Source: Candidatus Gastranaerophilales bacterium (GTDB lineage Bacteria > Cyanobacteriota > Vampirovibrionia > Gastranaerophilales > Gastranaerophilaceae). From it: 64,000 bases of DNA. Shown here piece after piece: positions 5,895 to 35,481 of this stretch (position 1 is its first letter; each line of letters opens with the position of its first letter). The notes below the pieces were generated by a model. The model did not search any database, was not told where the DNA came from, and saw only the letters and a list, made by a program, of their open reading frames with translations. The translations under genes and the position numbers were made by a program. The stretch lies in contig CALVHB010000025.1 in NCBI GenBank assembly GCA_944327275.1, forward strand, positions 1 through 64,000. Direction: 5' to 3'.

Positions 5895-7373
5895 TTAAAT
5901 TTCGGCAATTATGTCAATTTGAGAATTACATCCTATTTCTTCTCTTGATAGTACTGCAATGTTATTCATATAGTTGCTTAATAGAGTAAATATAAGATGT
6001 CTAAATTCTAGCGGTACTAATAATTTTGGATTTTTTACATGCAATTTTTTTACCTGCTTTTCAATTTTTTTTGCAAGTTGTTCTGCAAAATCAGCATCTA
6101 TCCTAATTATAGCATCATCACTTTCATCAAAGTTCGGACAGAATTTATCTAAGGTAGTTTCTGAAATTTCAAACGCTTCAATTATACCATCTTCATTTTG
6201 ATGATTTCTACATATTTGACGTGCTAATGAGAGTCTAATCTTTTTTATTAAATCAGATTTAGAGCTTTCTGCTGCAAAATCATTGATTTTTTCAAATATA
6301 TAGGTAATATCCTTTATTGAAACGTGTTCTCTGATTAAGCTTGTAAGAATAAATCTTAAATCTGACAGGGTAACAAAGTCTGGGATTATATTTGAAACGA
6401 GAAATTCATTAGAATTGCTTACTACATCAATATATTTATCTAATTCTTCATAGTCAAGCAAATCGTCAACGTATTTTACTGCACAGAATTCAAGAGCTTT
6501 TGTAATGTATTCTGCACTAGACAAACCTTTTTCCCAAAAATCTTTTGTGCAAGATTTTTCAACCCATACAACATCTTCTCCGCTAATTTTGTCTACATCT
6601 GAAATTGAATTTTTTATTTTATTTTCAGTATGTAGCTTTTCAGAGTAGAACATAAGATAGTTTGGATAAACTGTTGAACGGAAAACTTCAAGTCCGCGAA
6701 TTTTTATGCTGAATTCATAAGGATTTAGGTTTTCGTCGTCTTGAAAAACTATTTTAGGGATTATAAATCCGAGTTTTTCTGCCAGTTTAAGTCTTAATTT
6801 TACGGTTTCAGAAATTAATTCTTCTTCCATAATTTCTTCATTAGGGTTAATATAACCTAATATTTCTTCACTCAAATGTATTGAAAGTTTTTCTTCTTTA
6901 AGCATTGAATACATTGAGTTAGGAGAAGTTGCCTTTGCAAGTCTTTGTTTTAGTTCTTCAAGTTCTTTCAGTCCTGCAGAAATTTTATCGTTTAATTTTT
7001 TTCTGCTTACTGAAGCTGGAGCTTCTCCTTCTAATTCTGTTTTAATTTTTGCAATTTTATTTTTTTGTTCTCTTATTTTTTCCTGAATTTCTAAGCACAA
7101 ATCATATGGAGATTGTTTTGAAGAAAGCATTTTTTCCATTTGCGTTTTGAACGTTGATATGTTCATAACATCGGAGCTTATTTCATTTCCTGAATATTCT
7201 GCTTCTTTCATAAAAATGCAATGACAAAGTACCTGTCCATCGTCATTTTCAACTTCTTGCATACTATACAACTCCCAATTGTTCATAGACATTTCATTAA
7301 GAAGATTCTGCAACTCTTGGGTGTTGTCACTTGAACAGGTTTTTATGACATATTGCAATTTTTTATTATACAT
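5895..7373 (-). CDS. Soluble FlhA/SctV cytoplasmic-domain-like protein with DUF4177-like N-terminus
   Basis: 492 residues without any transmembrane segment. Residues 1-58 resemble a small DUF4177-type domain (YVIKTC...NNWELYSMQEV...IFMKE). Residues about 95-150 are a charged coiled coil. From about 165 to 470 the chain follows the C-terminal cytoplasmic domain of the flagellar/type III export gate FlhA: IVFQDDENLNPYEFSIKIRG at 208-227, EDVVWVE near 266, IIPDFVTLSDLRFILTSL at 329-346, and RLSLARQIC at 380-388. In true FlhA this domain forms the nonameric substrate-docking ring under an eight-helix membrane channel, which is missing here. GGAG sits 6 bases before ATG. It follows uridine phosphorylase by 10 bases in the bamA cluster. 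Export, scaffold or unrelated reuse cannot be separated from sequence. Confidence 0.75.
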   Translation of the reverse strand: MYNKKLQYVIKTCSSDNTQELQNLLNEMSMNNWELYSMQEVENDDGQVLCHCIFMKEAEYSGNEISSDVMNISTFKTQMEKMLSSKQSPYDLCLEIQEKIREQKNKIAKIKTELEGEAPASVSRKKLNDKISAGLKELEELKQRLAKATSPNSMYSMLKEEKLSIHLSEEILGYINPNEEIMEEELISETVKLRLKLAEKLGFIIPKIVFQDDENLNPYEFSIKIRGLEVFRSTVYPNYLMFYSEKLHTENKIKNSISDVDKISGEDVVWVEKSCTKDFWEKGLSSAEYITKALEFCAVKYVDDLLDYEELDKYIDVVSNSNEFLVSNIIPDFVTLSDLRFILTSLIREHVSIKDITYIFEKINDFAAESSKSDLIKKIRLSLARQICRNHQNEDGIIEAFEISETTLDKFCPNFDESDDAIIRIDADFAEQLAKKIEKQVKKLHVKNPKLLVPLEFRHLIFTLLSNYMNNIAVLSREEIGCNSQIDIIAEI

Positions 7374-7383
7374 TGGGTACTCC

Positions 7384-8157
7384 TTAATTTTGTTTATCTT
7401 GAGAAATTAAGATTTTTAGTGCTTCTATTGCAGTTTTTATTGCTTTATCGGTATCATGAACTACAGGATTTTCAAGACCTTGTTTTTCTCTCTCCTGATT
7501 TGCAACAGTTAAAAATACTGAACCGACTCTAACCTTTAAAAGGCTTGCGACAATAAATAATGCTGCAGATTCCATTTCAGAAGCTAAACATCCAAGCTTT
7601 TTCCATGCTTCCCATTTATTCATAAGTTCATAGCATACAGGCATTTTTTCTGGGGTATGTTGCCCATAAAAAGAATCTTTACATTGGACGACTCCTGTAT
7701 GATATTCATAGTTAAGATTTTTTGCAGATTGAACAAGAGAATTTGTAATTTCAAGATTTGCAACTGCAGGAAATTCAATAGGAGCATATTCCTTTGAAGT
7801 TCCTTCCATTCTTATGGCTCCGGTTGCAATAACAATATCTCCGCCTTTTACGTTTATGTCCATACCGCCACATGTACCAACTCGAATAAACGTATCGGCT
7901 CCCACATTTACAAGTTCTTCCATTGCAATTGATGCAGACGGACCTCCTATACCGGTAGATGTTACGCTGACCTTTTCACCGTTCAAATATCCGGTATAGG
8001 TGACGAATTCTCGTCTGTCTGCAACCAGTTTTGCATCATCAAAATATTCGGCAATTTTTTTGCACCTCTTGGGATCACCAGGCAAAATTATGTACCTGCC
8101 GACGTCACCGTCTACTAAGCCAATATGATACTGTTCATTATTTTCCGAATATTTCAT
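7384..8157 (-). CDS. udp: Uridine phosphorylase
   Basis: 257 residues, the normal length for the NP-I nucleoside phosphorylase family. It converts uridine and phosphate to uracil and ribose-1-phosphate. Visible motifs are ILPGDPKR near the N-terminus (phosphate binding), [22 protein letters not shown] (phosphate/ribose site), and SEMESAALF (the Glu-Met-Glu ribose-binding motif). The alternatives are other NP-I enzymes; the GDPKR and TGIGGPS segments favour Udp. It sits 15 bases after ompH and 10 before the FlhA-like gene, so it is probably read from the bamA promoter. Confidence 0.9.
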
Positions 8158-8172
8158 TATTTTCTGCCTTCC

Positions 8173-8631
8173 TTAGAAATTTCCGCTTTTTAGTTTTTGG
8201 ATTACTAAATCAGAAATATCTACACCACCTACAAATATTACTCTGTAATCAACTACAGCATCAAGTTTTTGTTCTACAAGAACTTGTTTTGTAGCTGCTT
8301 GAATTTTATTGTATACTTGTTCTTCTTTTTGAGATTTTAACTTCATATACGCATCTTCTTTTAATTTGAATTCGCGAGCAGTTTGTTCTTCAAAATTTTG
8401 TTTTTTCAATGGTGTATCTAAAGATTTGTATTGTTTTTCTTTATCTACCATATATTGTTGCATTTCTAGAGCTTTTGCATCAATCTCTTTGATAGCTTGT
8501 TGTGCAAAAGGGAAATTGTCTTGCACTTTTTGGTAATTGATATATCCAACTCCTGCGGCATCAGCTTGATTTGCAAAAGTTAAAAACAAACCTGCTGTCA
8601 TTAAAAGTGCTGCTAATTTGAATTTTTTCAT
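8173..8631 (-). CDS. OmpH/Skp family periplasmic chaperone
   Basis: 152 residues. An N-terminal signal peptide ends near AFA/ADAA (hydrophobic LAALLMTAGLFLTFANQADA). The mature part begins VGYINYQKVQDNFP, the typical OmpH start, followed by a long Lys/Gln/Glu-rich helical hairpin and a short C-terminal strand region. Skp-type proteins hold unfolded outer-membrane proteins in the periplasm and deliver them to BamA, which is encoded directly upstream. TAGGAGG before the ATG is a strong ribosome binding site. Confidence 0.85.
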   Translation of the reverse strand: MKKFKLAALLMTAGLFLTFANQADAAGVGYINYQKVQDNFPFAQQAIKEIDAKALEMQQYMVDKEKQYKSLDTPLKKQNFEEQTAREFKLKEDAYMKLKSQKEEQVYNKIQAATKQVLVEQKLDAVVDYRVIFVGGVDISDLVIQKLKSGNF

Positions 8632-23627: not shown

Positions 23628-24008
23628 ATGGGTTATATACACTGCTGCGGTGCTCTGCATAAGACTAAAACTTTTCGTCTTGTGCCGCGGGAAAATTTTG
23701 TTATATGTGAATTGGACTGTTTATCAAGATGTCCTATTTGCGGTCATACGGTCGTACAACTTACAAGGGTTGATGTTAATGATAATATATCAGTTGTCAG
23801 GAAGGTTAATAGAAAAGCTAAGTTATTTTTTGAAAAATTGAAAAATTCAATTCAATATGAAATCCGTTCAATTAATTATAACAAAGTAAATACCGGAAAA
23901 TTTTACTTGAATTATAACGAGTTTGGAGTAAAGAAAAGATGCTATTCCAACTTAAGTACTATGAAAATTGGTTTGGCAGAAAACAAAGATTTAAAAACAA
24001 ATCCTTAA
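23628..24008 (+). CDS. Small zinc-ribbon-like hypothetical protein
   Basis: 126 residues. The N-terminal 45 residues are Cys/His-rich (HCC near residue 6, then CELDCLSRCPICGHT), which could form a zinc ribbon. The remainder is basic with many aromatics (IQYEIRSINYN, KFYLNYNEFGVKKRCYS). AGGGGATA precedes the ATG. It is not clearly phage-related, although it lies immediately before the phage-like cassette and is cut off from it by a terminator. Function unknown; RNA or DNA binding is a guess from the charge and the Cys pairs. Confidence 0.6.
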   Translation: MGYIHCCGALHKTKTFRLVPRENFVICELDCLSRCPICGHTVVQLTRVDVNDNISVVRKVNRKAKLFFEKLKNSIQYEIRSINYNKVNTGKFYLNYNEFGVKKRCYSNLSTMKIGLAENKDLKTNP

Positions 24009-24023
24009 AATTATCTTACTCTC

Positions 24024-24048
24024 GGGCGGATTACCCGCCCTTTTTTTT
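24024..24048 (+). terminator. GC-rich terminator marking left side of phage-like cassette
   Basis: GGGCGG (24024-24029), loop ATTAC, CCGCCC (24035-24040), then eight T. It insulates the cassette starting at 24.1 kb from upstream transcription. Confidence 0.92.
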
Positions 24049-24127
24049 GAACGGAAATATTATGAATTAAGTTTTGATATTTTTTAGTACGCTAAATATG
24101 AAACTTTAATTAGAGGAATTAGGAAAG

Positions 24128-24388
24128 ATGGCACTATCTCCAAAGGAAGAACAAGTATTATCCTTGGTTGCACTAGGATATTCTGATAAGCAAATAGCCG
24201 TTGAATTAGATATAGCATATGGGACAGTGAGAAATCATGTTGATAAGGCCGTTTTGAAGTTAAATGCTCAGAATAGAACACATGCAGTCATGATATATAA
24301 ATTTATTAACAAAGATTGGTTAGAGGAATTTTATGAAGCGAATAATAATACACTGGACCGCAGGAGGGTATTATCCAACAGATTATGA
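24128..24388 (+). CDS. LuxR/GerE-type HTH protein heading the phage-like cassette
   Basis: 86 residues. The first 60 form a LuxR-type HTH: LSPKEEQVLSLVALGYSDKQIAVELDIAYGTVRNHVDKAVLKL, with the typical T-V-R-N-H recognition helix. There is no receiver or ligand domain, so it is a stand-alone DNA-binding domain, as in some phage and spore regulators. RBS AGGAAAG precedes the ATG. Its last 56 bases overlap the endolysin gene in another frame. As first gene of the cassette it may control late-gene expression. Confidence 0.8.
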   Translation: MALSPKEEQVLSLVALGYSDKQIAVELDIAYGTVRNHVDKAVLKLNAQNRTHAVMIYKFINKDWLEEFYEANNNTLDRRRVLSNRL

Positions 24389-24824
24389 AAAAGAACATTA
24401 TCATTTTCTTGTTGACAAGAGTGGAAATGTTCATAAAGGAAAGTTTTCTCCTGAAGATAATGAATTTTGTAGAGTTGGGAAATATGCTGCACATACAGGT
24501 GGTGGGAATACCGGTAGTATTGGAGTTGCACTGTGTGCGATGGCGGGATTTAAAAATAAAAATAATGTTGGGAATTTTCCGATTGAAAAGAAACAGTTTG
24601 AAAGTGCGATGGAGTTGTGTGCCAAACTTGTAGAAAAATATAATTTAATTATCTCTCCACAGTCTGTTATGACTCATTATGAATTCGGATTGAAAAATCC
24701 TAAAACGACATCGGCAGGTAAAATCGATATTATTTATCTGCCGCCTTATTCTTGGGTTGAGAAAGAAGAAGTTGGAAGTTTTATACGTTCTAAAGTTAAG
24801 TGGTACAAAGCAAAGGGAGTGTAA
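24333..24824 (+). CDS. N-acetylmuramoyl-L-alanine amidase, endolysin (PGRP/amidase_2 type)
   Basis: 163 residues. The amidase_2 fold cleaves the amide bond between muramic acid and L-Ala in peptidoglycan. Zinc ligand candidates are H8 in IIIHWTAGG and His/Asp later in TSAGKIDIIYLP; VMTHYEFGL and HTGGGNTGSIGVALCAMAG are also typical of the family. No signal peptide, so release needs the holin. The start has GAGGAATTTT upstream and lies inside the HTH gene, suggesting coupled translation. Confidence 0.88.
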   Translation: MKRIIIHWTAGGYYPTDYEKEHYHFLVDKSGNVHKGKFSPEDNEFCRVGKYAAHTGGGNTGSIGVALCAMAGFKNKNNVGNFPIEKKQFESAMELCAKLVEKYNLIISPQSVMTHYEFGLKNPKTTSAGKIDIIYLPPYSWVEKEEVGSFIRSKVKWYKAKGV

Positions 24825-24827
24825 TGT

Positions 24828-26336
24828 ATGGAAGTAGCTTATTATAATTTATCCGGTGGTATTAATCAGGCTCTTACAAAAACAGAACTTGGGATTGATA
24901 CAAAAAAAATTTATTGGGCGGATTCTGAGAATGTTGAAATCTTTCAAAATAGAGGCATCATAAAGCAAAAGGGTAATATCTTGTTTAAAGAAATTGGAGA
25001 AGAAATTACCGGAATGGCGGAGATGGATGCGTATGATATAAAAAAATTAGTCATTACAACTGTATCTGGTAAGATTTATATCTATGATAATAGAAATGCA
25101 AGTTTAAATTTGGTTGAAAAAACTTTAACAGGGGTAAAGCCTGTATTTTTAAATTTTTTAAACGGGATATTGATTATTACAGAAGCAGATGGATTATTTT
25201 ATATAAAAAATAATGAGACTTATGATGTTGTAGATTGTAATTTGAAAGATTTATCCCAAAATACACTTGTAGGGGGTGTACTTGCGGTATATAAGGGCAG
25301 AGTATGGGTGGCTAAAGATGCAACTATTTATTATTCTGCGTTAGGTACTTATGATGATTTCTCATCTGAAAATGATGCAGGATATATAAATGAGTTTCAT
25401 ACTGATACAGGTTCAATTACTGCGCTTATGCCATATAAAGATTATTTGGCAATTTATAAAAATGACAGTGTGTATTTATTGACGGGTGTAAGTCCTGATG
25501 ATTTTGCAATTACTCTTTTTGCAAACAAGGGCGCTGTCGCTCCGAATTCTATTGTCAATGTTGAAAATAAACAATATTTTTTGAGCAATGGGATTTTTGC
25601 TCTTGAACAAGTTGGAGAATTAAATCAAATACAATTAGGAAGTGAAATTTCGTTAAAAATAAAGCAGGAATTTTCATTGTTTGGTTATTTGCAAAACACT
25701 TTTTGCTTGCATTATGAGGCGAAATCTCAAATGTGGTATTTCTTTCCTTATGCAGATGATGAATATTTTCATACTGTATGGATTAATGATTATGTTAATA
25801 AATCTTGGTATAAGAGGGTGATTCCTCAGGATATAGTCTGCGCTTGTATATATGACGGGGAGATATACACTGCTGATAAATCCGGAAATATTTACAGGGA
25901 AGGTATGGGGACATCTTTTAATGGCAGTCCAATAAAATTTATGTGGAAATCGCCTTTTCTTGCTATATCAAACCCTCATCGTAGAAAGTTAATTGATGAA
26001 TTTTATTTTTTACTTGATACTGAAAATGATAACGATTTTAATTTTTCTGTTTACAAAGATTATGATAGCGAGTTTATAGATGATGTTGAGAGAATATACT
26101 CTGTTCATCAAGATCATTTGGTTTGGGCTGATGAAAACACATCTGAAAAATTGCCTTGTAAGTGGCCTTTAGATAATGAAAATGTACCTATATGGTCTAT
26201 AAACAAAGATACTATGGAAAAGGCTGAAATATCTGAATCTAATTATTCTGTACAAATATGTGTAACAGGGGAGGAATTAGCTCAATCTTGTGCAATTATT
26301 GGTCTGCAATTTAGAGAAGTGTATGAAGACGATTAG
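24828..26336 (+). CDS. Probable phage tail nozzle / DNA-stabilisation protein (P22 gp10 or T7 gp12-like)
   Basis: 502 residues, almost all beta strand, with repeats of about 40-50 residues that look like propeller blades (KIYIYDNRNASL, LFYIKNNETYDV, VWVAKDATIYYS, SVYLLTGVSPDDF, GIFALEQVGE). Size, fold type and the presence of an adaptor, portal and P22-like coat protein in the same cassette suggest the short-tail nozzle that plugs the head after packaging. Sequence identity to named phage proteins cannot be judged by eye. It starts 3 bases after the endolysin stop. Confidence 0.6.
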   Translation: MEVAYYNLSGGINQALTKTELGIDTKKIYWADSENVEIFQNRGIIKQKGNILFKEIGEEITGMAEMDAYDIKKLVITTVSGKIYIYDNRNASLNLVEKTLTGVKPVFLNFLNGILIITEADGLFYIKNNETYDVVDCNLKDLSQNTLVGGVLAVYKGRVWVAKDATIYYSALGTYDDFSSENDAGYINEFHTDTGSITALMPYKDYLAIYKNDSVYLLTGVSPDDFAITLFANKGAVAPNSIVNVENKQYFLSNGIFALEQVGELNQIQLGSEISLKIKQEFSLFGYLQNTFCLHYEAKSQMWYFFPYADDEYFHTVWINDYVNKSWYKRVIPQDIVCACIYDGEIYTADKSGNIYREGMGTSFNGSPIKFMWKSPFLAISNPHRRKLIDEFYFLLDTENDNDFNFSVYKDYDSEFIDDVERIYSVHQDHLVWADENTSEKLPCKWPLDNENVPIWSINKDTMEKAEISESNYSVQICVTGEELAQSCAIIGLQFREVYEDD

Positions 26337-26392
26337 GAAAATCCACACCACTCATATTAATATTACTTAGGAAAAAGAAAGGAAAAGAAATT

Positions 26393-27247
26393 ATGACAAA
26401 TGCTTATTCTGCATTTATTCCGGAAATTTGGAGCCAAAAATTAAGCTATATGCTTTCAAAAGAATGCGTAATGCTTCAGTGTGTTAACAGAAATTGGGAA
26501 GGTGAAATTAAGAATCAAGGCGATAAGGTTAAAATTATTACACCTGCTGAAGTTACTATTTCAACATTGAGTGATTCTAATATTGAATACAACGAGTTGA
26601 CACCTACTGCGCAGGATTTATTAATTGATCAACAAAAATTCTTTGCTTTTAAAATTAATGATGTTGCTCAAGCTCAGGCTAATACTGATATTATGGAAGC
26701 TCATTTGAAAAATGCTAAAAAAGCTATTGAAGAAGTTCAAGATTCTTTCATTTTGTCTTTACATAAGGATGTTGATTCTAAAAATATTGTTGGTTCTGAA
26801 GAAGCTGCTGTTACTCTTGATAAATCTACTGTTTATTCAAAATTTGTTGAATTAGCTTTGTGTTTGAAAAATTCTAGCGCAGTAACAAGCGGTGTCAGAC
26901 CTTGGGTAGTTATTAACCCAACTATTGAATCTTATTTGTTACAAAGCTCTGAGTTTATAGGTGCTCACAATGTTGCTGATGAAACTTTGAGAGAAGGTGC
27001 AATTGGCAGAATTGCAGGCATGGATGTACTAGTTAGTTCAAATTTAACAGATGTTGCAGGTAAATATTATGTTCTTGCAGGTACTAATGAAGCTATTACA
27101 TTTGCATCTCAATTAGCAAAAATTGAAAGTCTTAGAGATAAAGATAGCTTTTCTGACTTGGTTAGAGGCTTATACTTATACGGTGCAAAAGTCGTTCAAC
27201 CTAAAGCTCTTGCTAAAATGGTTGTTACAGCTCCTGCAGCTGCATAG
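26393..27247 (+). CDS. Major capsid protein (P22 coat-like, HK97 fold)
   Basis: 284 residues. The N-terminus AYSAFIPEIWSQKLSYMLSKECVMLQCVNRNWEGEIKNQGDKVKI is typical of P22-type coat proteins, and the C-terminal half contains GRIAGMDVLVSSNL and KYYVLAGTNEAITFASQLAKIES. No maturation protease is fused or adjacent, matching P22-like phages that use a separate scaffold. A very strong AAAGAAAGGAAAAG ribosome binding region and a stable hairpin after the stop suggest high expression. It should form the icosahedral head. Confidence 0.88.
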   Translation: MTNAYSAFIPEIWSQKLSYMLSKECVMLQCVNRNWEGEIKNQGDKVKIITPAEVTISTLSDSNIEYNELTPTAQDLLIDQQKFFAFKINDVAQAQANTDIMEAHLKNAKKAIEEVQDSFILSLHKDVDSKNIVGSEEAAVTLDKSTVYSKFVELALCLKNSSAVTSGVRPWVVINPTIESYLLQSSEFIGAHNVADETLREGAIGRIAGMDVLVSSNLTDVAGKYYVLAGTNEAITFASQLAKIESLRDKDSFSDLVRGLYLYGAKVVQPKALAKMVVTAPAAA

Positions 27248-27269
27248 GACTTTTTTATTTATCCCTGTA

Positions 27270-27300
27270 TGCATCTTCGATATTTTTTATCGAAGGTGCA
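27270..27300 (+). other. Strong hairpin downstream of major capsid gene
   Basis: TGCATCTTCGAT (27270-27281) pairs with ATCGAAGGTGCA (27289-27300) with one G-T wobble and a T-rich loop. No T run follows, so it is more likely an mRNA stabiliser or partial attenuator that raises capsid levels over the downstream genes. Confidence 0.55.
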
Positions 27301-27327
27301 TTGTATTAAATATATTGAGGTAAATTT

Positions 27328-27564
27328 ATGTTTGACAGTTTGAAATCAACTATTAAGGAATTAGCCAAAACTGCAGTGATAAAAGCCGAAGAAGCTTTAG
27401 GTAGTCAAAAAGGGCAACAAAAAAAGGAGATGGCTATTGAATACATTGTGAGTAATATTCCTGTAATAGGTTTTTTGAAACCGCTAATATCTATGTTATT
27501 GTCCTCATTTATTGATGATGCTGTAGAATTCGCGGTTGAATACATGAAAAGTGAGGTATTATGA
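27328..27564 (+). CDS. Putative LL-H-type phage holin
   Basis: 78 residues. An amphipathic N-terminal helix (KSTIKELAKTAVIKAEEALGSQKGQQKKEMAIEYI) is followed by a hydrophobic stretch (IPVIGFLKPLISMLLSSFI) and a C-terminal helix (DDAVEFAVEYMKSE). The order of A-E-x-A-L-G-S-x-x-G-Q-x-K-K-E and a terminal A-V-E helix resembles LL-H-family holins, which make membrane lesions that let the endolysin out. Its position away from the endolysin is unusual. The stop overlaps the next start (ATGA). Confidence 0.55.
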   Translation: MFDSLKSTIKELAKTAVIKAEEALGSQKGQQKKEMAIEYIVSNIPVIGFLKPLISMLLSSFIDDAVEFAVEYMKSEVL

Positions 27565-28214
27565 ATCCAGTAAATAATCAAAATGTTTCATCCTATGCCG
27601 AAAATCAATCTGCGGCATTTGGTCAACAGCCTGTAGGTAATGATATTGAAACTTACAAACAAATGGCTGTTAGAGATTTAAAAGTGATTGAAAATCTTGT
27701 AAAAACAGGAGTTATGACCGAAGAACAAGGACAAAATTTAATGAATTATGTTACTAAAAAGGCGTTTGAAAAGTATACATTAAGTCAGCAAAATGGTCAG
27801 GTTCCTGTATCTACACAAGCTGCTGTAATGCCTGTTCAAAATTCCGAAATGTCCGTTTTATCCCAAATGCCGGAATTCTTTAACAGAGAAGGAAGACTTG
27901 ATGTTTTTGATTACTTGAAAAATGCAAATGTTAATGTTGATCAGGATGAGATCTCTAAAATATCTGCATTGGTAGAAAAAATTGAAAATTCTGCTATAGC
28001 CAGGTATTTGAGAGAAAAAGAACACGAAAAAACATTGAATAATGAAAATGAAGCCGCTAAACAGAGATTGAGAGCTAATGCTCAAAATGCTGTGTCTGAC
28101 GGGAATAAAAATTTGGTTTTCACTCGTGAACAAATCGGCAAAATGAGTGGTGCGGAATTTGCTAAATACGAACGTATGATTATGGATCAATTAAAAAAAG
28201 GTCTTATTAAATAG
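27561..28214 (+). CDS. Probable capsid scaffolding protein
   Basis: 217 residues, helical, Gln/Asn-rich at the N-terminus and with no membrane segment. The C-terminus (FTREQIGKMSGAEFAKYERM, then QLKKGLIK) is the type of short basic helical module by which scaffolding proteins bind coat subunits. Neighbouring the coat gene fits. Overlaps the holin-like gene by 4 bases; followed by a terminator. A minor head protein is the main alternative. Confidence 0.65.
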   Translation: MNPVNNQNVSSYAENQSAAFGQQPVGNDIETYKQMAVRDLKVIENLVKTGVMTEEQGQNLMNYVTKKAFEKYTLSQQNGQVPVSTQAAVMPVQNSEMSVLSQMPEFFNREGRLDVFDYLKNANVNVDQDEISKISALVEKIENSAIARYLREKEHEKTLNNENEAAKQRLRANAQNAVSDGNKNLVFTREQIGKMSGAEFAKYERMIMDQLKKGLIK

Positions 28215-28236
28215 CAATATTCAAAAATCTTTTTTG

Positions 28237-28267
28237 AAAAAACAGTCTTTTTATAAGACTGTTTTTT
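28237..28267 (+). terminator. Terminator inside the cassette, after scaffold gene
   Basis: AAAAAACAGTCTT (28237-28249) pairs with AAGACTGTTTTTT (28255-28267) around a short loop. It splits the cassette into an early block (lysis, nozzle, coat, scaffold) and a later block (adaptor, terminases, portal). Confidence 0.9.
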
Positions 28268-28295
28268 CTTAAAGATTTCTAGTGAAAGGAAGTTT

Positions 28296-28934
28296 ATGAA
28301 TTATTTAGAATTGATAAATAAATGTCTTGTTGAACTTAATTATAAACAAGTTAGTGCTTTTTCAGAATTGACAAAGAATGAGCATAAAAAATTGAAAAAT
28401 ATATTAAATGTTTTGAATACAGAGATTTGTGGGAGTGACAGATGGAATTTTCTTTTGAGAAGAAAAACAGAAATTCTCCCTAAAAATACAGGAGAAATTC
28501 AAAACAATGTAGAAGGAAGAATAGAGACCGTTATTGTCGATGGAGTAAAATTTGATTTCTATGAAGATTTTGAAAAGTTTTTTGTTGATTCTCAGACTCA
28601 AAATACTTATAGTGTTTTTAATGATAAGATTTTGTTTCCGATTTTTGATAAAGACAAGACTGTAGAAATTGTTTATTACACAAAAAATTGTGCTAAGGAC
28701 TCTGAAAATCAAGAAAAATTTTCGATGGAAGATGCTTTAGATGCATCTTTGATTCCTGATCCGTACGTGGAACCTCTTTTGGTTTATGGTGCTTGTATGA
28801 GATTAAAAGGGAATCCGCAAAATGTCAGATTTAGCTATTGGTACAGTATGTATAAGGAGGCATTGGCAAATTTAAGGGCGAGAGTATCTCCAAGTATAGA
28901 TGATTCCCCTTCTGTGAAACTTCATAGAAAATAG
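28296..28934 (+). CDS. Head-tail adaptor protein (P22 gp4 / T7 gp11-like)
   Basis: 212 residues. The start NYLELINKCLVELNYKQVSAFSEL, then KKLKNILNVLNTEICGSDRWNFLLRRKTEIL, is the recurring pattern of podoviral adaptor (tail tubular A/gp4-like) proteins, with alternating helices at both ends and a beta-rich middle. It would form the ring joining portal and nozzle. AAAGGAAG lies before the ATG. Confidence 0.78.
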   Translation: MNYLELINKCLVELNYKQVSAFSELTKNEHKKLKNILNVLNTEICGSDRWNFLLRRKTEILPKNTGEIQNNVEGRIETVIVDGVKFDFYEDFEKFFVDSQTQNTYSVFNDKILFPIFDKDKTVEIVYYTKNCAKDSENQEKFSMEDALDASLIPDPYVEPLLVYGACMRLKGNPQNVRFSYWYSMYKEALANLRARVSPSIDDSPSVKLHRK

Positions 28935-29096
28935 TGCACAAAAAAAACAGGAAGTTTAAAATTCATTTCCCCTCCTGTTAAGATTTACACTAGCCGAAAT
29001 ATAAATAGCATGTCTATTATACAATTTTTTTTAAGAAAATACAAATAATAAGAAGATTTGTAACGAAAATACATAATTAGTAAATAAAAAAATATT
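28935..29096 (+). other. Non-coding gap inside cassette
   Basis: 162 bases without a coding signal. AACAGGA (about 28948) and TCCTGTT (about 28973) can pair across about 20 bases but have no T run. Several TATTAT/AATAAT stretches lie before the small-terminase ATG, which lacks a clear Shine-Dalgarno sequence; a promoter here is likely but cannot be placed. Confidence 0.4.
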
Positions 29097-29534
29097 ATGA
29101 ATCATTTAACCCAGCAACAAAAAAAATTTGTTTTAGAATATATTAAATCCCTCAATGGTGAACTTTCAGCTAAAAAAGCAGGATATAAATCTAAAAATTT
29201 AAAAGAGACAGCAAGTGAACTTTTAGCAAAAGATGCAATTATCCATGAAATCAAAACTCAGATAAAAAATCAGATTTCGTCTTTAAGAGTTAATAAAGGA
29301 TATGTAATTCAAAAATTGTTAAAGATTGCGGAATTTTCCTTGGAAGAGGAAGATATTTTGGATAAAGACGGTTCTATTACTGGTAAAAAGAAGTTGAGAG
29401 ATACATCTGCAGGATTAAAAGCTCTTGAAAGTTTATGTAAGTATTTGGGATTTACAGCTGTTCAAGATGAGGAAGATGAGTATAAACAGGCAAAAATTGT
29501 TACTATTTCCAATCTTGACGATAGTAAAATTTAG
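29097..29534 (+). CDS. Terminase small subunit
   Basis: 145 residues. N-terminal HTH typical of small terminases: LTQQQKKFVLEYIKSLNGELSAKKAGYKSK, then a helical oligomerisation region (NQISSLRVNKGYVIQKLLKIAEFSLEE) and an acidic C-terminus. It recognises DNA to be packaged and presents it to the large subunit. If the cassette is a gene-transfer agent, this protein would set packaging specificity. Confidence 0.85.
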   Translation: MNHLTQQQKKFVLEYIKSLNGELSAKKAGYKSKNLKETASELLAKDAIIHEIKTQIKNQISSLRVNKGYVIQKLLKIAEFSLEEEDILDKDGSITGKKKLRDTSAGLKALESLCKYLGFTAVQDEEDEYKQAKIVTISNLDDSKI

Positions 29535-29555
29535 TTTACTTATAAGGAGAATTTT

Positions 29556-29906
29556 ATGAAAAACAACGATGCTGAAGCTATGCTTTTAAATAATGCATCT
29601 TTAGAAGATCTTATAAAAATGAAAATCGAAAAAGAGTTTATGAATGATTTGAAAAAGTCAAAAGAAAAGCCGTCTAAAAAAGAATATCTGGATATAAAAG
29701 ACATACCAAAAGATAAAATATTTTCTAAAGATTCTATTTTTAGATATTTTAGCAGAAAAACAGGATGTGAAACTTTTATAAACGGTATTCAGGCAGAAGC
29801 TTTAGTCGGAGTACAAAGACATCTTAGGAATCAAATATTGAACGGCAGGCTAAATGCTTTTACGACTGATGATGCTTATGTGAAGTTTGAGAAAGCAGTG
29901 TTTTAA
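29556..29906 (+). CDS. Unknown cassette protein between terminase small subunit and GNAT
   Basis: 116 residues, strongly charged, with Lys-rich middle (KKSKEKPSKKEYLDIKDIPKDK) and a C-terminal globular part (TGCETFINGIQAEALVGVQRHL). TAAGGAGAA precedes the ATG. I do not recognise a family. It overlaps the GNAT gene by one base (TAATG), so the two are co-translated and may work together. Confidence 0.6.
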   Translation: MKNNDAEAMLLNNASLEDLIKMKIEKEFMNDLKKSKEKPSKKEYLDIKDIPKDKIFSKDSIFRYFSRKTGCETFINGIQAEALVGVQRHLRNQILNGRLNAFTTDDAYVKFEKAVF

Positions 29907-30406
29907 TGACGGAATTTAAAAATCCATTTGAAAAGTCTGCTTATTTTGAGCAGGCATTATTTTTGTATATAAAACATTCAAAATTTTTAGATGATGACTA
30001 TGCCTCTGATGGGAAATCAGTGTATGAATATTTCTACAATTTGGTGTGCAGAACTTTACCGTTATTTTTTGTGATAACAGAAGGTGATTGTGTTAGCGGA
30101 TTCGTATATTTAGACAATATAATTGGAAATAGTGAAAACTTGCATAGTGCAGAACTTTCTACCTGTTTTGACAGAAAATTTTGGGGTGATTATACAAAAA
30201 AATGTGCCAAATTTTTCATAGATCATTGTTTTCAAAAATATGGTTTTACGAAAATTAAGGCTCAAGTTTATCCTGAAAATTGCAGAGTCAAAAACCTTTT
30301 AAAAAATGCGGGATTTAAAAAAGAAGCACTTTTGAAAGGTGAGACTTTAAGAGGCGGAAAATTACAGGATATAGAGATATATTCTGTATTCAACAAGGAA
30401 AGGTGA
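29906..30406 (+). CDS. GNAT acetyltransferase encoded within the cassette
   Basis: 166 residues. The C-terminal half reads as a RimJ/RimL-like GNAT: KFFIDHCFQKYGFTKIKAQVYPENCRVKNLLKNAGFKKEALL, with the N-x-x-x-x-x-L-L-x-x-A-G-F signature. The acetyl-CoA phosphate loop in front is degenerate. GNATs appear in several phage genomes between packaging genes, with unknown targets; acetylating a coat, tail or host protein is possible. The start overlaps the preceding stop. Confidence 0.75.
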   Translation: MTEFKNPFEKSAYFEQALFLYIKHSKFLDDDYASDGKSVYEYFYNLVCRTLPLFFVITEGDCVSGFVYLDNIIGNSENLHSAELSTCFDRKFWGDYTKKCAKFFIDHCFQKYGFTKIKAQVYPENCRVKNLLKNAGFKKEALLKGETLRGGKLQDIEIYSVFNKER

Positions 30407-30410
30407 TGTA

Positions 30411-32075
30411 ATGAAAATAGAAACAGAAGATTTAACTCAGGAACTTTCTTCTACGGAAGAACTTTTTTTAGTTGGAAATATTACCCAAAAATACGACAGG
30501 TTTAATGATCAAAGAGCCACTCAGTTGAGTGATATGAAATTTGTAAGGGATGCTATTTACAACACAGATATTCCTAAAATTGACGGTTGGGACAACAAAA
30601 TAGAGCTGCCGGATATTTATGAGTTGGCACAAACTTTAAAATCTCATATTAGTCAAAATTTATATTCTCATCCGGATGCAATGTTTGATGTTACCGGAAC
30701 AACTCCAAATACTCAATCTTTTGCTAATAAGCAGAAAGCAATGCTTGTCAATACTTTCGAGAATATGAAAATTGAAGATGAAATTGAAAAAGTTATTGAT
30801 GGGATAGTTGAGACCGGTGAAAGCACTCTTTTTGTCGGTTGGGAGACTAAAATAAAATCAGTAAGGCGTCCTCAAACTTTTGAAGAACAAATTTTGAATC
30901 CCGAAAAAAGAGGATTTACTATTGATGAAAAAGTTATTTATGATAACGCAAAAGTAAAACACATCAAGGCAGAGGACTTTGTATTCGATAAATATAACAA
31001 GGAAAATTGGGACAAATGTGCAAAGATTTACAGAACATATTCAACTATTGATGAATTGTTTTCTGACAAGGCAAATAATTTGTTGGATGAAAGAAAATTG
31101 GAAGTATTGAAAGGAGTGGTGGCTGGTAAAAAATATCCGAATAATGATGATAATGATGGAGCTGTAGAAGGTAAAAAAGTAGAAATACTTGAATATTGGG
31201 GTGATATTGAACTTTCAAACGGAAAATTATTGAAAAATTGGTTGATAGTTGTAGCTGCAAGAAAAGAGATTATTAGATTTGAAAGTAATCCGTTTGTTAT
31301 AAATCCGTTTATTCATGCAAATATTATAGAATCCCCTCAGACAGGAAGAGGAATTTCTCCTTTGCGTGTTGCTTTAATTTTGAACAATATTGCATCAACT
31401 ATTTTAAATAAACAAATTGATGCTCTTGCATTGATGATGAATCCTCCTTATCTTGCACCGAAAGGTTGCTTTAAAGGTCAGCAAGATGTAAGACCGGGTA
31501 AAATTATAGAGTATGATGCTGCTCTTATGCCTACTGCTCCGACGCCTTTATCTTTTGATAAAGCTATGGTGGGTTGGGATTTCTTGAATTATTTTAAATC
31601 AACAATTGAAAGTGCAACAGGTATTTTCAAAAATATGGCAGGGAATCTCCAGTCTGCAGAGCGTACTGCTACAGAACTGAATTATTCGGTAAGCGGACAA
31701 GAAGCAAGACTCAATATGATTTTGGATTCAATAAACAGAAAAATTATAGTGCCAATGGTCGAAAAGACTGCTGAAATAATATCGTATTTTAAACTGGGGT
31801 CTGAAATTATCGGAGTCAATGATAGAGGAAAAACAAGTTTTCTTGAAATAACTGATGAAATAAGAAGCGCAAATTATGTTTATCGATATGGTGATCGAAA
31901 AGCGACATTTGAGCGTAAAACAAAATTAAAAGAATTATTTGCGGTTGTTCAATCCTTTGCTCAGGTACCTGAAGTTGAAGAAAAAATAGACTGGTTAGAA
32001 TGCTTTAAATTTGCTCTTGAACAATATGGAATAGAAAATGCAAATAATTTTTTATTAAATGATGACGAATCATAG
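30411..32075 (+). CDS. Phage portal protein (podovirus type)
   Basis: 554 residues. Portal rings form the head vertex through which DNA enters. Segments RVALILNNIASTILNKQIDALALMMNPPYLAP and SAERTATELNYSVSGQEARLNMILDSINRKIIVPMV match the stem and clip helices of P22/phage-type portals. An N-terminal wing region includes NKIELPDIYELAQTLKSHI. Immediately followed by the large terminase, its usual partner. Apparently intact. Confidence 0.85.
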   Translation: MKIETEDLTQELSSTEELFLVGNITQKYDRFNDQRATQLSDMKFVRDAIYNTDIPKIDGWDNKIELPDIYELAQTLKSHISQNLYSHPDAMFDVTGTTPNTQSFANKQKAMLVNTFENMKIEDEIEKVIDGIVETGESTLFVGWETKIKSVRRPQTFEEQILNPEKRGFTIDEKVIYDNAKVKHIKAEDFVFDKYNKENWDKCAKIYRTYSTIDELFSDKANNLLDERKLEVLKGVVAGKKYPNNDDNDGAVEGKKVEILEYWGDIELSNGKLLKNWLIVVAARKEIIRFESNPFVINPFIHANIIESPQTGRGISPLRVALILNNIASTILNKQIDALALMMNPPYLAPKGCFKGQQDVRPGKIIEYDAALMPTAPTPLSFDKAMVGWDFLNYFKSTIESATGIFKNMAGNLQSAERTATELNYSVSGQEARLNMILDSINRKIIVPMVEKTAEIISYFKLGSEIIGVNDRGKTSFLEITDEIRSANYVYRYGDRKATFERKTKLKELFAVVQSFAQVPEVEEKIDWLECFKFALEQYGIENANNFLLNDDES

Positions 32076-32128
32076 TGCCGCTAATGCGGCACTATAAACT
32101 ATTAAGGGTTAGTCTGTTATAGGAGATT

Positions 32129-33418
32129 ATGTTATATAAATTATTAAAAGCTCAGCGGGAATTTTTGGAAATCCCGCATGATTACACATTGGATGTTGCG
32201 GTGTATCAGGGAGGTTATGGGTCTGGGAAGACTTTTGCAGGTTCGCTTTTAGGGATATTACTCGCTTTAAAATTCCCGGGGGTGCGAGGTTTGGTAGGTG
32301 CTCAGACCTACACTCTTGTTAGGGATACAACCTTGCAGACATATTTTGAACATTTAGAAAATTTTGGGTTTATTGAAGGAAAAGATTACGAGTGGTCTTC
32401 CTCTTTGCAAAAATTGACTTTTAAAAATGGATCAGAGATTCTTTTTAGACATTTTGATGAACCGAATAAGTTAAAATCTTTGAATCTTGGGTTTGTGGAA
32501 ATTGAAGAAATGTCTGATATCCCTTATGATACTTTTAAGATGCTTTTAGGTCGTATGCGCCAAAGAGTAAAAAAGGTATGGAAAAACTTTACTTACAGAA
32601 TTTTTGGACATACTAACCCTGAGATGCAAAGAGGATGGGTTTACAAAACTTTTATAGAAAATCCTGCACCTAATTACAGGTTAATTACAGCCCCTACAAC
32701 TCAGAATATTTATCTGCCTGAAGGTTTTTGTGATGAATTAAAAAAATTATATGATGAGCAATATTACAATATATTTGTGTTAGCTCAAAATGGAGAGTAT
32801 AACAATGGGCTTGTGATAAAAGATTTTGGGAATGATAACATAAGAGATATTTCATATCAGCCGGATATGGATTTGCATATATCTTGTGATTTCAACGTTG
32901 ATCCGATGTGTTGGGTATTTGCTCATAAAACTGATGATAAAGTTTTTTATTTTGATGAAATTGCGATGGAGAACACTACAACCGCTAAGGCTTGTGATGA
33001 ATTTTACAGGCGTTATCCGAATCATAAGGGTAAAGTTATTGTAAATGGTGATGCATCAGGAGATAACAGGAGTTGTACAAGTGAATATACTAATTACGTG
33101 ATAATAAAGAAAAAACTTTTGCAATATGGATATGATGTTGAAATCCAAATTAAGGCGTTTAATCCTCCTATTAAAAATCGAATTATGGCTTTTAATTCAA
33201 AAGTAAGATCTGCTGATGGGGAAGTTTGTCTTTTTGTCGATAAAAAATGCGAAAAACTTCTTTATAATATCTACAATTTAAAATATAAGGAAGGAACTTC
33301 GAAAATAGATATTCCGACATATCAACAGATTAAACAGTCAAAGGAACTAAAATTTTTATCTCACCCAATGGATGCAGCTTCTTACCTTGTCGATTTTTAT
33401 TGGCCTATTACACTCTAA
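32129..33418 (+). CDS. Terminase large subunit
   Basis: 429 residues. ATPase domain: Walker A GGYGSGKT at residues 28-35 and Walker B-like GFVEIEEMSD. RNase H-like nuclease domain: Asp in SCDFNVDPMCW, VNGDASGDN, and Asp in SHPMDAASYLVDF. It cuts concatemeric DNA and drives it into the head. AGGAG before the ATG. All catalytic residues expected are present, so the motor is likely functional. The packaging mode (cos, pac or headful) cannot be told from sequence alone. Confidence 0.92.
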   Translation: MLYKLLKAQREFLEIPHDYTLDVAVYQGGYGSGKTFAGSLLGILLALKFPGVRGLVGAQTYTLVRDTTLQTYFEHLENFGFIEGKDYEWSSSLQKLTFKNGSEILFRHFDEPNKLKSLNLGFVEIEEMSDIPYDTFKMLLGRMRQRVKKVWKNFTYRIFGHTNPEMQRGWVYKTFIENPAPNYRLITAPTTQNIYLPEGFCDELKKLYDEQYYNIFVLAQNGEYNNGLVIKDFGNDNIRDISYQPDMDLHISCDFNVDPMCWVFAHKTDDKVFYFDEIAMENTTTAKACDEFYRRYPNHKGKVIVNGDASGDNRSCTSEYTNYVIIKKKLLQYGYDVEIQIKAFNPPIKNRIMAFNSKVRSADGEVCLFVDKKCEKLLYNIYNLKYKEGTSKIDIPTYQQIKQSKELKFLSHPMDAASYLVDFYWPITL

Positions 33419-33430
33419 AGAAAGGATAGT

Positions 33431-33661
33431 ATGGATAAAATAATAGAGTATTCTCCAATAATTATTGTTGTTTTAATGTTTTTTGTTCAGCAAAAAATTT
33501 TTGTTACGCCTGAACAGTTGGAGAAAAAACACAGAGAAATTGTTGAAGAAATTGAGGAAAAATTTGTGACGATACATAGTTTTGTTGATTTGAAGGATCA
33601 ATTTTCCGAAGTGAAAGATAAAATTGATAAAATGTATGATTTATTAATTGATTTAAAATAA
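33431..33661 (+). CDS. Small single-pass membrane protein at end of cassette
   Basis: 76 residues. One N-terminal hydrophobic helix (YSPIIIVVLMFFVQQKIFV) and a charged coiled-coil C-terminus (EQLEKKHREIVEEIEEKF). AAAGGATAG precedes the ATG. Could be an antiholin, spanin-like or accessory protein; it lacks a lipobox. Same strand and 12 bases after the large terminase gene. Confidence 0.6.
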   Translation: MDKIIEYSPIIIVVLMFFVQQKIFVTPEQLEKKHREIVEEIEEKFVTIHSFVDLKDQFSEVKDKIDKMYDLLIDLK

Positions 33662-33777: not shown

Positions 33778-35481
33778 ATGGGATTGGCAGCTTCACAAGC
33801 AAGATTTTTAGCCATAACATCAAGAAAGATGAATTGCGAATTTCAGTCTATGCAAATTGCGCAAGAAAAACTTTCTGTTACACGTGATCTTCAGGCAGCA
33901 TCTCAAAAGTACCAAAATTCTTTAAACGCAACAAAACTTGTATGGGATACTGATGCAGATGAAGTATATGATTTGTCATATGATATTATGATGAATCCTT
34001 CTGCATTGAATGATTACAATCCTTATTTGATTACTGATACGCAAGGGAAACTTGTACTTTCAGAAAAAATGTTTCAAGCAGCTGTTACAGCTGGAATTAT
34101 TGATAAAAACGGTGATCCTATTCAAGGGGCTTCTTTATTTACTGAAGGTGCTGCTGATGCAAAGGGTGATGGTTCTCGTAACGCATTTTTGAATGCACTA
34201 GGTGAAAGAGGACAAGTTAGTCAATCAACTATCGATTCTATAACTAAATTAGAAAATAGTTATACTAAATCAGGAGTTGGTGGAGATATCTTAGATAAGA
34301 CTATTGCTAATGCACTTACTTCTACAGCGTTTATTTCTGAATTAAAGAGTAAATATGATAAAACTGAAGAAGGGCATGAAGCAGGTGATTTAAAATATCA
34401 ATTGGATTTGATTAGTTTACTTGGAGATAAAGATGGTAACGGAGAAGTGACTGATGATGAAATCAGCAGTACTTTCTGTTTTACAACATCTCCGGATCCT
34501 GAAAAAGATAAAGGTAAGTTTATAATTACTAATAATGGTCAAGCATTAACTAAAGATCAGTTGCAAAACTTATCTTTGGGTGACATTTTGAGTGGAAAAT
34601 ATGCTATGACAGTTGTTGGAACTCAGGATTTAGCTCCTACTTCTGAAAAAGCTTTGTATGAAATGGCAAAACTTCTTGGGTATGAGTCCGGAAGCAGCGT
34701 GCCTAACGGTGTAGGACTTAATGTTGACAGTGAAGCTGCGGATGCATTATCCCAAGCTATTAGTTTTACTTTATTGAATATAACAGGGCCTGATGCAAAG
34801 GCTGTTACAACTGGCGGTAATACATATGAAGCTATTACAAATGCGGCAAATGAGTCCCAAAATTACAATGGTATTGTTATAAGTGATAAACAGCACGCGT
34901 CTATCAGTTTGACTAACTTGTTGAAATCTTATTTAACAAACTTTGCAATAGCAATAGATGGTTTTTCAAATACTCAGTTTATGGTTTCAGATAAAGTTTC
35001 TGATAGTGTATTTGCAACCGATGATTTGAATTATACATTCCTCATAGAGGAAAAAGATGCTATTACAGAATCCGATGTGTTGACTGCTGATTTTTATAAC
35101 CAGTTGTATAACCAATTATGTATGAATGGTGCAACTTCTGATGCAATAAAACGAGAAAAAGTAACTGATCCAGAGTATCTTTCTCAGGCAATAAAGAATG
35201 GACAATTGTTTATATCTTCATTGAATACTGACGGATATTTTTACCAAGGCGCATATACTTTGAACGGATATGTTGCAGAAGTTGCTGATGAGGATGCAAT
35301 TGCACAAGCAGAAGCTGAATATGAAACAACAAAAGCTAAATTGGATTATAAAGAACAAACACTTGAATTGAAAATGAAAAATATTGATACTGAATTATCA
35401 GCTTTGACTACAGAATATGATACAGTCAAGAACTTGATAAACAAAAATGTAGAAAAAGTATTTACGATGTTTAGTACATAA
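33778..35481 (+). CDS. Lineage-specific protein with flagellar/type III axial-like ends
   Basis: 567 residues, no signal peptide. The N-terminal 50 residues ([17 protein letters not shown], then [17 protein letters not shown]) and C-terminal 60 ([19 protein letters not shown], then [18 protein letters not shown]) are amphipathic helices, like the paired terminal coiled coils of flagellar axial and some type III-exported proteins. The middle is Asn/Gly/Thr-rich and holds [12 protein letters not shown], an EF-hand/dockerin-like calcium loop at about 213. Family identity is not proven. The absence of a Sec signal with a surface-type composition is compatible with non-Sec export. AAAGGAAAA precedes the ATG. 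Confidence 0.55.

Follow-up and report, generated by a model that had tools for sequence, protein, structure and literature searches.

Domesticated phage tails, such as type VI secretion systems (T6SS), extracellular contractile injection systems (eCIS) and tailocins, are familiar weapons. To our knowledge, domesticated heads are known chiefly as gene transfer agents (GTAs), and proposals that capsids deliver toxins have chiefly concerned MuF prophage remnants. In the MuF systems, capsids are predicted to deliver MuF-fused toxins encoded in such remnants (PMC3482391). FpGTA of Faecalibacterium is described as podovirus-like, with an operon of about 10 kb encoding terminase, portal, scaffold, major capsid protein (MCP) and short-tail proteins, and as present in all Faecalibacterium genomes examined (PMC12946183). 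Here we analyzed 64,000 nt of DNA from a Candidatus Gastranaerophilales bacterium (assembly GCA_944327275.1, contig CALVHB010000025.1, positions 1 to 64,000; hereafter the window), in which the original prediction, made from the sequence, had recognized a stripped-down phage head and packaging block of GTA or satellite type. The block is a cassette of 13 genes (24128-33661) for a podovirus-type head and nozzle, for packaging and for lysis, and comparative analysis gives good support to its being a vertically inherited, domesticated, GTA-like element under purifying selection. It also points to a probable protein cargo that the original prediction did not foresee, in the form of effectors tagged with a scaffold motif in most relatives. 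The scaffold-tag cargo system is more surprising than the GTA-like domestication. In the literature searched we found no earlier report of a GTA in Gastranaerophilales.

All cassette genes lie on the + strand with intact frames and dense spacing, and the GC content is 0.32 (0.33 in the flanks). Most genes were assigned by profile matches (Pfam, PHROG) and the nozzle by its fold. The packaging genes encode the terminase small subunit (TerS, 29097..29534; PF03592, E 2e-18; phrog_51), the SU10-type portal protein (SU10_portal, 30411..32075; PF23899, E 8e-18; phrog_332, E 9e-32) and the terminase large subunit (TerL, 32129..33418; PF04466, E 4e-20; phrog_2, E 1.5e-35). The MCP (26393..27247) matches phrog_267 (E 1e-47) and the phage MCP of PDB entry 8e16 (E 1e-26), and an SU10-type head-tail adaptor (SU10_adaptor, PF24175, E 1e-6) is encoded at 28296..28934. 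The AlphaFold2 model of the 24828..26336 product (mean pLDDT 86.9) is a beta-propeller of the P22 gp10, T7 gp12 and SU10 type; among full-length podovirus nozzles it came closest to the tail protein of phage Pa223 (Z 29.3, with 434 of 502 residues aligned), followed by SU10 (Z 27.1) and P22 gp10 (Z 25.4). The predicted fold confirms the earlier "nozzle candidate" as a genuine nozzle of podovirus type. With nozzle fold, portal and adaptor all present, the particle should carry these three as a short tail. For lysis there are an N-acetylmuramoyl-L-alanine amidase endolysin (24333..24824; PF01510, E 1.6e-12; phrog_5867) and a Holin_LLH-like holin candidate (27328..27564; phrog_6918, E 1e-5; PF09682 at 23.3 bits, slightly below the 24.9 cut-off). 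The scaffold protein (27561..28214) gave no profile match and, apart from a designed repeat protein that matched the motif described below and was dismissed as not meaningful, no PDB sequence match for itself or its motif. It was assigned because of its place next to the MCP, its all-helical model and a C-terminal motif in common with scaffold-position proteins of phages (L146, L148). The named head, packaging, nozzle and lysis genes were thus all where the original prediction had put them. Its further claim that the block holds no integrase, repressor, replication or tail-spike gene held when all cassette open reading frames (ORFs) were scanned with profiles; the scans also gave no MuF match in the cassette that would indicate a MuF-domain toxin fusion.

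Flanks, synteny and selection had been proposed as the checks on a GTA, and each came out in its favor. Every one of the 33 genomes in the genus has TerL, and 16 of 41 genera in the family have it at 78% identity or more. About 20 loci fetched from the genus and about 10 from other genera agree in gene order and hardly differ in gene lengths. The left flank, with zip and a radical SAM gene, is common to most loci (it was not recognized in genera g7, g9 and g27). The right neighbor is mostly the same fast-evolving ORF (33778-35481), beyond which secA follows in some genomes and rpsP in others; local rearrangement has therefore occurred. Past this ORF, rpsP and the 17327/17944 genes replace secA in loci L168, L174, L178, L181, L183 and L185, all of a single genus. 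The ORF itself shows a ratio of nonsynonymous to synonymous substitution rates (dN/dS) of 0.31 and has a paralogue within the cassette of locus L187 (6060-7781). For the cassette genes, at a median dS near 1, median within-genus dN/dS ranged from 0.044 to 0.24: TerL 0.044, portal 0.076, TerS 0.094, MCP 0.109, amidase 0.110, nozzle 0.118, adaptor 0.149, holin and the first gene 0.20, and scaffold 0.24. The housekeeping controls fliI, secA and the radical SAM gene gave 0.03-0.05.

Low dN/dS by itself would fit an active phage too, and it is the trees that decide. Distances in a seven-gene cassette tree followed those of rpoB, which lies on other contigs, with a Mantel r of 0.88 overall (reached by 0 of 2000 permutations), 0.73 inside the genus and 0.76 outside it; the two trees have 13 of 30 splits in common. 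Named database matches are gut Gastranaerophilales bins, with a few records labeled otherwise (e.g., Fusobacterium sp. CAG:439). In genera without the cassette, mostly other genes adjoin fliI and no clean empty site was seen; in G047, a stretch of about 4 kb that holds no cassette separates fliI from secA, an arrangement compatible with gain or with loss at the root. Phage-derived head and packaging genes in the chromosome, vertical descent, purifying selection and the lack of integration and replication genes are among the marks of a GTA, and the cassette shows all four.

A temperate phage or satellite, active or recently so, that happens to reside in this lineage would also present structural genes that are every one of phage kind, and integrases do occur in related phages of low TerL identity, four of the distant phages tested having one (L146, L147, L123, L127). 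Genuine phages that share these gene families are distantly related, with TerL at about 30-60% identity, and among reference phages the closest MCP stands at 44% and the closest TerL at 30%. The original prediction had named a complete phage carrying the block plus integrase and tail genes as the finding that would speak against a GTA. Two IMG/VR scans and a tblastn search of 50,697 phages turned up none: the close IMG/VR matches were the same cassette in fragments below 19 kb or in chromosomal contigs, and the remainder were distant phages. One 33.8-kb IMG/VR contig (L066) carries an integrase-family ORF about 15 kb downstream; the intervening DNA is not phage-like, and the contig was judged chromosomal. 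A resident phage or satellite is already contradicted by a block without integrase, by its TerL in every genome of the genus and by a cassette tree that tracks rpoB, and we consider it very improbable. A satellite of the phage-inducible chromosomal island type (PICI or capsid-forming cf-PICI) was rejected on the same lack of an integrase, the conserved position and the vertical descent, so that of the alternatives first offered, GTA-like or satellite, only the GTA-like one stood. The parts missing from the cassettes of G008 and G048, and the absence of the cassette from some 25 genera of the family, could be read as the slow decay of a functionless prophage remnant; intact frames, near-constant lengths and dN/dS far below 1 at a median dS of about 1 already contradict this, and leave it hardly credible.

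We next consider the scaffold C-terminus and the proteins that share it. The last 36 scaffold residues (28104..28211, + strand; FTREQIGKMSGAEFAKxExxIMxQLxKGLI) are near-invariant across the scaffolds of the family, end the scaffold-position proteins of distant phages (L146, L148, L317, L327, L329), and are present in unrelated proteins; we propose this motif as a coat-binding segment and cargo tag. In the scaffold model it forms a helical segment on a flexible link (pLDDT 76-95 over residues 181-217), which fits coat binding and is no proof of it. The window has a portal-TerL gap of 53 bp (32076..32128), a site that in many relatives holds cargo and putative immunity genes: there, or near TerS, 1-5 kb of extra genes are found (2-5 kb between portal and TerL in L171, L178, L179, L187 and L190), and several of the products carry a module matching the last 36 scaffold residues. 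A module profile (A1) built from the motif and searched against the relatives' genomes detected the scaffold and many proteins scattered through the chromosomes, mostly at E 1e-9 to 1e-19 per genome. The tagged proteins consist of an enzyme domain, one or two modules and then one of two short C-terminal elements (WVTINGNHVLI or YTRSDGTxVxGYYR); in a second architecture the module stands at the front. The enzyme domains found with Pfam are a Glyco_hydro_108 (GH108) muramidase, a transglycosylase-like domain, Lipase_3, DUF6973 and the PBECR1 nuclease. Motif matches besides the scaffold occur in 24 of the 33 genomes of the genus, and in 11 of 13 cassette-bearing genomes of other genera; among 21 cassette-less genomes of the family, 5 have any motif match at all, two of these five at E ~0.02. 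The association of motif and cassette (Fisher 1e-4 overall, 1e-3 without the genus) was computed on genomes drawn from tables that list only some negatives, and is thus a weaker test than that of the neighbor genes given below. Short leftover WVTINGNHVLI-type tails lie directly 5' of TerL in four genomes (G001:C21:3443-3517, G012:C7:22494-22529, G015:C35:14799-14873 and G023:C144:1577-1654), which suggests that cargo genes between portal and TerL have decayed there or are cut by contig ends. In locus L040, a MuF-like protein (7286-8272; W..C.EC.ALDGQ.F...PHPNCKC) was seen by eye between adaptor and TerS, near a double-motif ORF.

The genes beside the cargo genes were examined as candidate immunity genes, a neighbor being counted when it encodes a protein of 85-210 aa that has one or more hydrophobic segments and lies within 120 bp of the gene. 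Such small secreted or membrane neighbors accompany 30 of 37 orphan cargo genes versus 7 of 133 control ORFs (Fisher 4e-20); the 37 are not fully independent, several being orthologues. The gene of a secreted LprI-type lysozyme inhibitor precedes the GH108 muramidase cargo in 4 of 4 cases tested, related secreted proteins precede the transglycosylase-like cargo, and divergent multi-pass membrane proteins adjoin the lipase and DUF6973 cargo. As read from these protein families, the neighbor type fits the enzyme type. Variable effector domains, a constant trafficking module and adjacent candidate immunity genes make up the layout of polymorphic toxins, which is seen in the relatives only. Position is what marks the immunity genes as candidates, joined in the case of LprI by its protein family.

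We propose the following working for this system. Coat protein would build a procapsid around the scaffold, and tagged effectors would enter with the scaffold through the presumed coat-binding motif; loading by the motif is proposed by analogy, because P22 scaffold residues 238-303 suffice for loading foreign proteins, and cargo fused to them enters the procapsid (PMC9962691). TerS and TerL would pump DNA into the head through the portal, adaptor and nozzle would close it to give a short-tailed particle, and holin and amidase would lyse the producer cell and free the particles. The effectors, perhaps with DNA, would then reach other cells and may kill them, and the secreted or membrane neighbors would protect kin. 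We favor, as the probable account, a domesticated head, nozzle, packaging and lysis module into which effectors are loaded by a scaffold-type tag in most relatives for delivery to other cells. Rather than a virus, the shell is probably a device by which the bacteria deliver DNA, proteins or both. The bolder form of the proposal is evenly balanced in our judgment: that this bacterial family converted the capsid of a phage into an inherited particle for toxin delivery, whose scattered effectors are sorted by a copy of the scaffold's coat-binding tail, in other words a secretion route built on phage heads instead of tails.

The particle could instead be a classical GTA that packages fragments of host DNA for kin, the tagged muramidases, transglycosylases and lipases serving for ejection and entry only. 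The full packaging motor and the lysis genes are under purifying selection, and the chassis occurs without tagged cargo in the window's genome and in others. ComEC, present in the window's genome and compatible with DNA uptake, could import delivered DNA, and the podovirus-like FpGTA of gut Faecalibacterium packages seemingly random host DNA of 8.4-8.9 kb (PMC12946183). Entry enzymes, however, leave the tagged DUF6973 and PBECR1 nuclease proteins unexplained, and likewise the changing effector sets and the paired lysozyme-inhibitor and membrane genes. TerS aligns to nearly the entire PF03592 (Terminase_2) model and not just to a reduced form of it, although such an alignment does not reveal sequence specificity. 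On balance we regard a purely DNA-carrying GTA as rather unlikely. The motif might also be a general structural repeat of phages with no sorting role, and the tagged proteins stray phage genes: it terminates scaffold-position proteins in other phages as well (L146, L317, L327 and L329 among them), and it is followed in tagged proteins by a second C-terminal element to which no role is assigned. Yet the tagged genes are mostly solitary, have immunity-like neighbors and are concentrated in cassette-bearing genomes, and the cargo tail has no match among the 50,697 phage records; we therefore think this explanation improbable. Several observations weigh against a tag-loaded effector particle. Searches of the window's genome, which is 93% complete, with the motif and the two tail tags as queries detected neither tagged cargo nor either tail element, and the near-complete genus genomes G006, G010, G020, G025 and G027 yielded the scaffold match only; in such genomes the contents of the particle may be only DNA, or a type of cargo that escaped recognition here. 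The cassette revealed neither a receptor-binding protein nor a tail spike, the cassettes of G008 and G048 seem partly lost, and all genomes are draft assemblies, mostly metagenome bins. The tagged enzymes could also be envelope-crossing ejection proteins instead of toxins.

The remaining features of the locus are as follows. The first gene (24128..24388), noted originally as a LuxR-type helix-turn-helix (HTH) gene, does encode a LuxR/GerE-type HTH protein (PF00196, E 8e-16) and is a candidate regulator. A conserved 116-aa protein (29556..29906; dN/dS 0.16) matches no family and is kept in all full cassettes, and the next gene (29906..30406) encodes a GNAT-fold protein (PF13302, E 2.5e-7) with a weak match to phrog_651 (head morphogenesis). 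The last product (33431..33661; dN/dS 0.06), a small coiled-coil protein with an N-terminal membrane segment, is an accessory holin or spanin candidate from its sequence; a homologue adjoins amidase and holin in the phage-like locus L141. Directly upstream of the cassette, a zinc-ribbon ORF of 126 aa (23628..24008, + strand) is kept in the genus and in several other genera, and it was counted with the cassette because homologues at 29-49% identity lie near TerL in distant phage-like loci (L107, L146, L217, L219, L220). A strong intrinsic terminator on the + strand (24024..24040; GGGCGG-ATTAC-CCGCCC then TTTTTTTT) sets this gene apart from the cassette operon. The whole window contains no tRNA gene and no Rfam match. 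Among incomplete or variant clusters (L182 and L199), the G008 cassette lacks the HTH-to-scaffold part and retains tagged cargo, and that of G048 lacks nozzle, holin, GNAT and the last gene. G096 of genus g36 holds a compact relative of the cassette, 10 kb long and differently ordered (L211:700-10400), and G067 of the same genus has no TerL match. Genus g8 (L193, L208, L301, L303) has a variant cluster in the order scaffold, three tagged cargo genes, MCP, nozzle, GNAT and TerL, which may represent either another domesticated capsid or a phage that handles cargo in the same way.

A sequence tag thus connects a head cassette fixed in a genus with polymorphic effectors and their candidate immunity genes in many genomes. 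With this tag, the cargo of phage-derived particles can be located by a simple rule, and toxin delivery by phage heads becomes open to direct tests. The cassette may be a further podovirus-like element of GTA type from the gut, outside Bacillota.

Compared with known systems, the cassette resembles the RcGTA-type GTAs of alphaproteobacteria in its vertical descent, purifying selection, head, packaging and lysis genes, and lack of integration and replication genes. RcGTA-type GTAs have a siphovirus-like long tail, unlike this cassette, and we know of no scaffold-tagged effectors in them. Podoviruses of the SU10 and P22 types have portal, adaptor and nozzle of the same families or folds; unlike them, the cassette has no tail-spike, needle, ejection, replication or lysogeny genes and differs in gene order. 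T4 is a lytic phage, and the signal of its internal proteins is N-terminal. Like the T4 internal proteins and P22 scaffold-fusion loading, the proposed system would use a short signal of scaffold or core type to draw unrelated proteins into the procapsid (PMC9962691 for P22), but the P22 fusions are man-made, whereas the tagged cargo here is natural. Among gut bacteria, FpGTA is alike by its published description: it is podovirus-like and has a similar structural gene set, but it belongs to another phylum, its lysis and tail-fiber genes form a second operon, its TerS reportedly lacks an obvious DNA-binding domain, and tagged effector cargo goes unmentioned in the accessible part of its report (PMC12946183). 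As in the MuF systems, toxins are proposed as phage-capsid cargo for other cells (PMC3482391); unlike in those systems, the tag here is the scaffold C-terminus, most of the putative cargo is encoded in trans, and inheritance of the chassis spans several genera.

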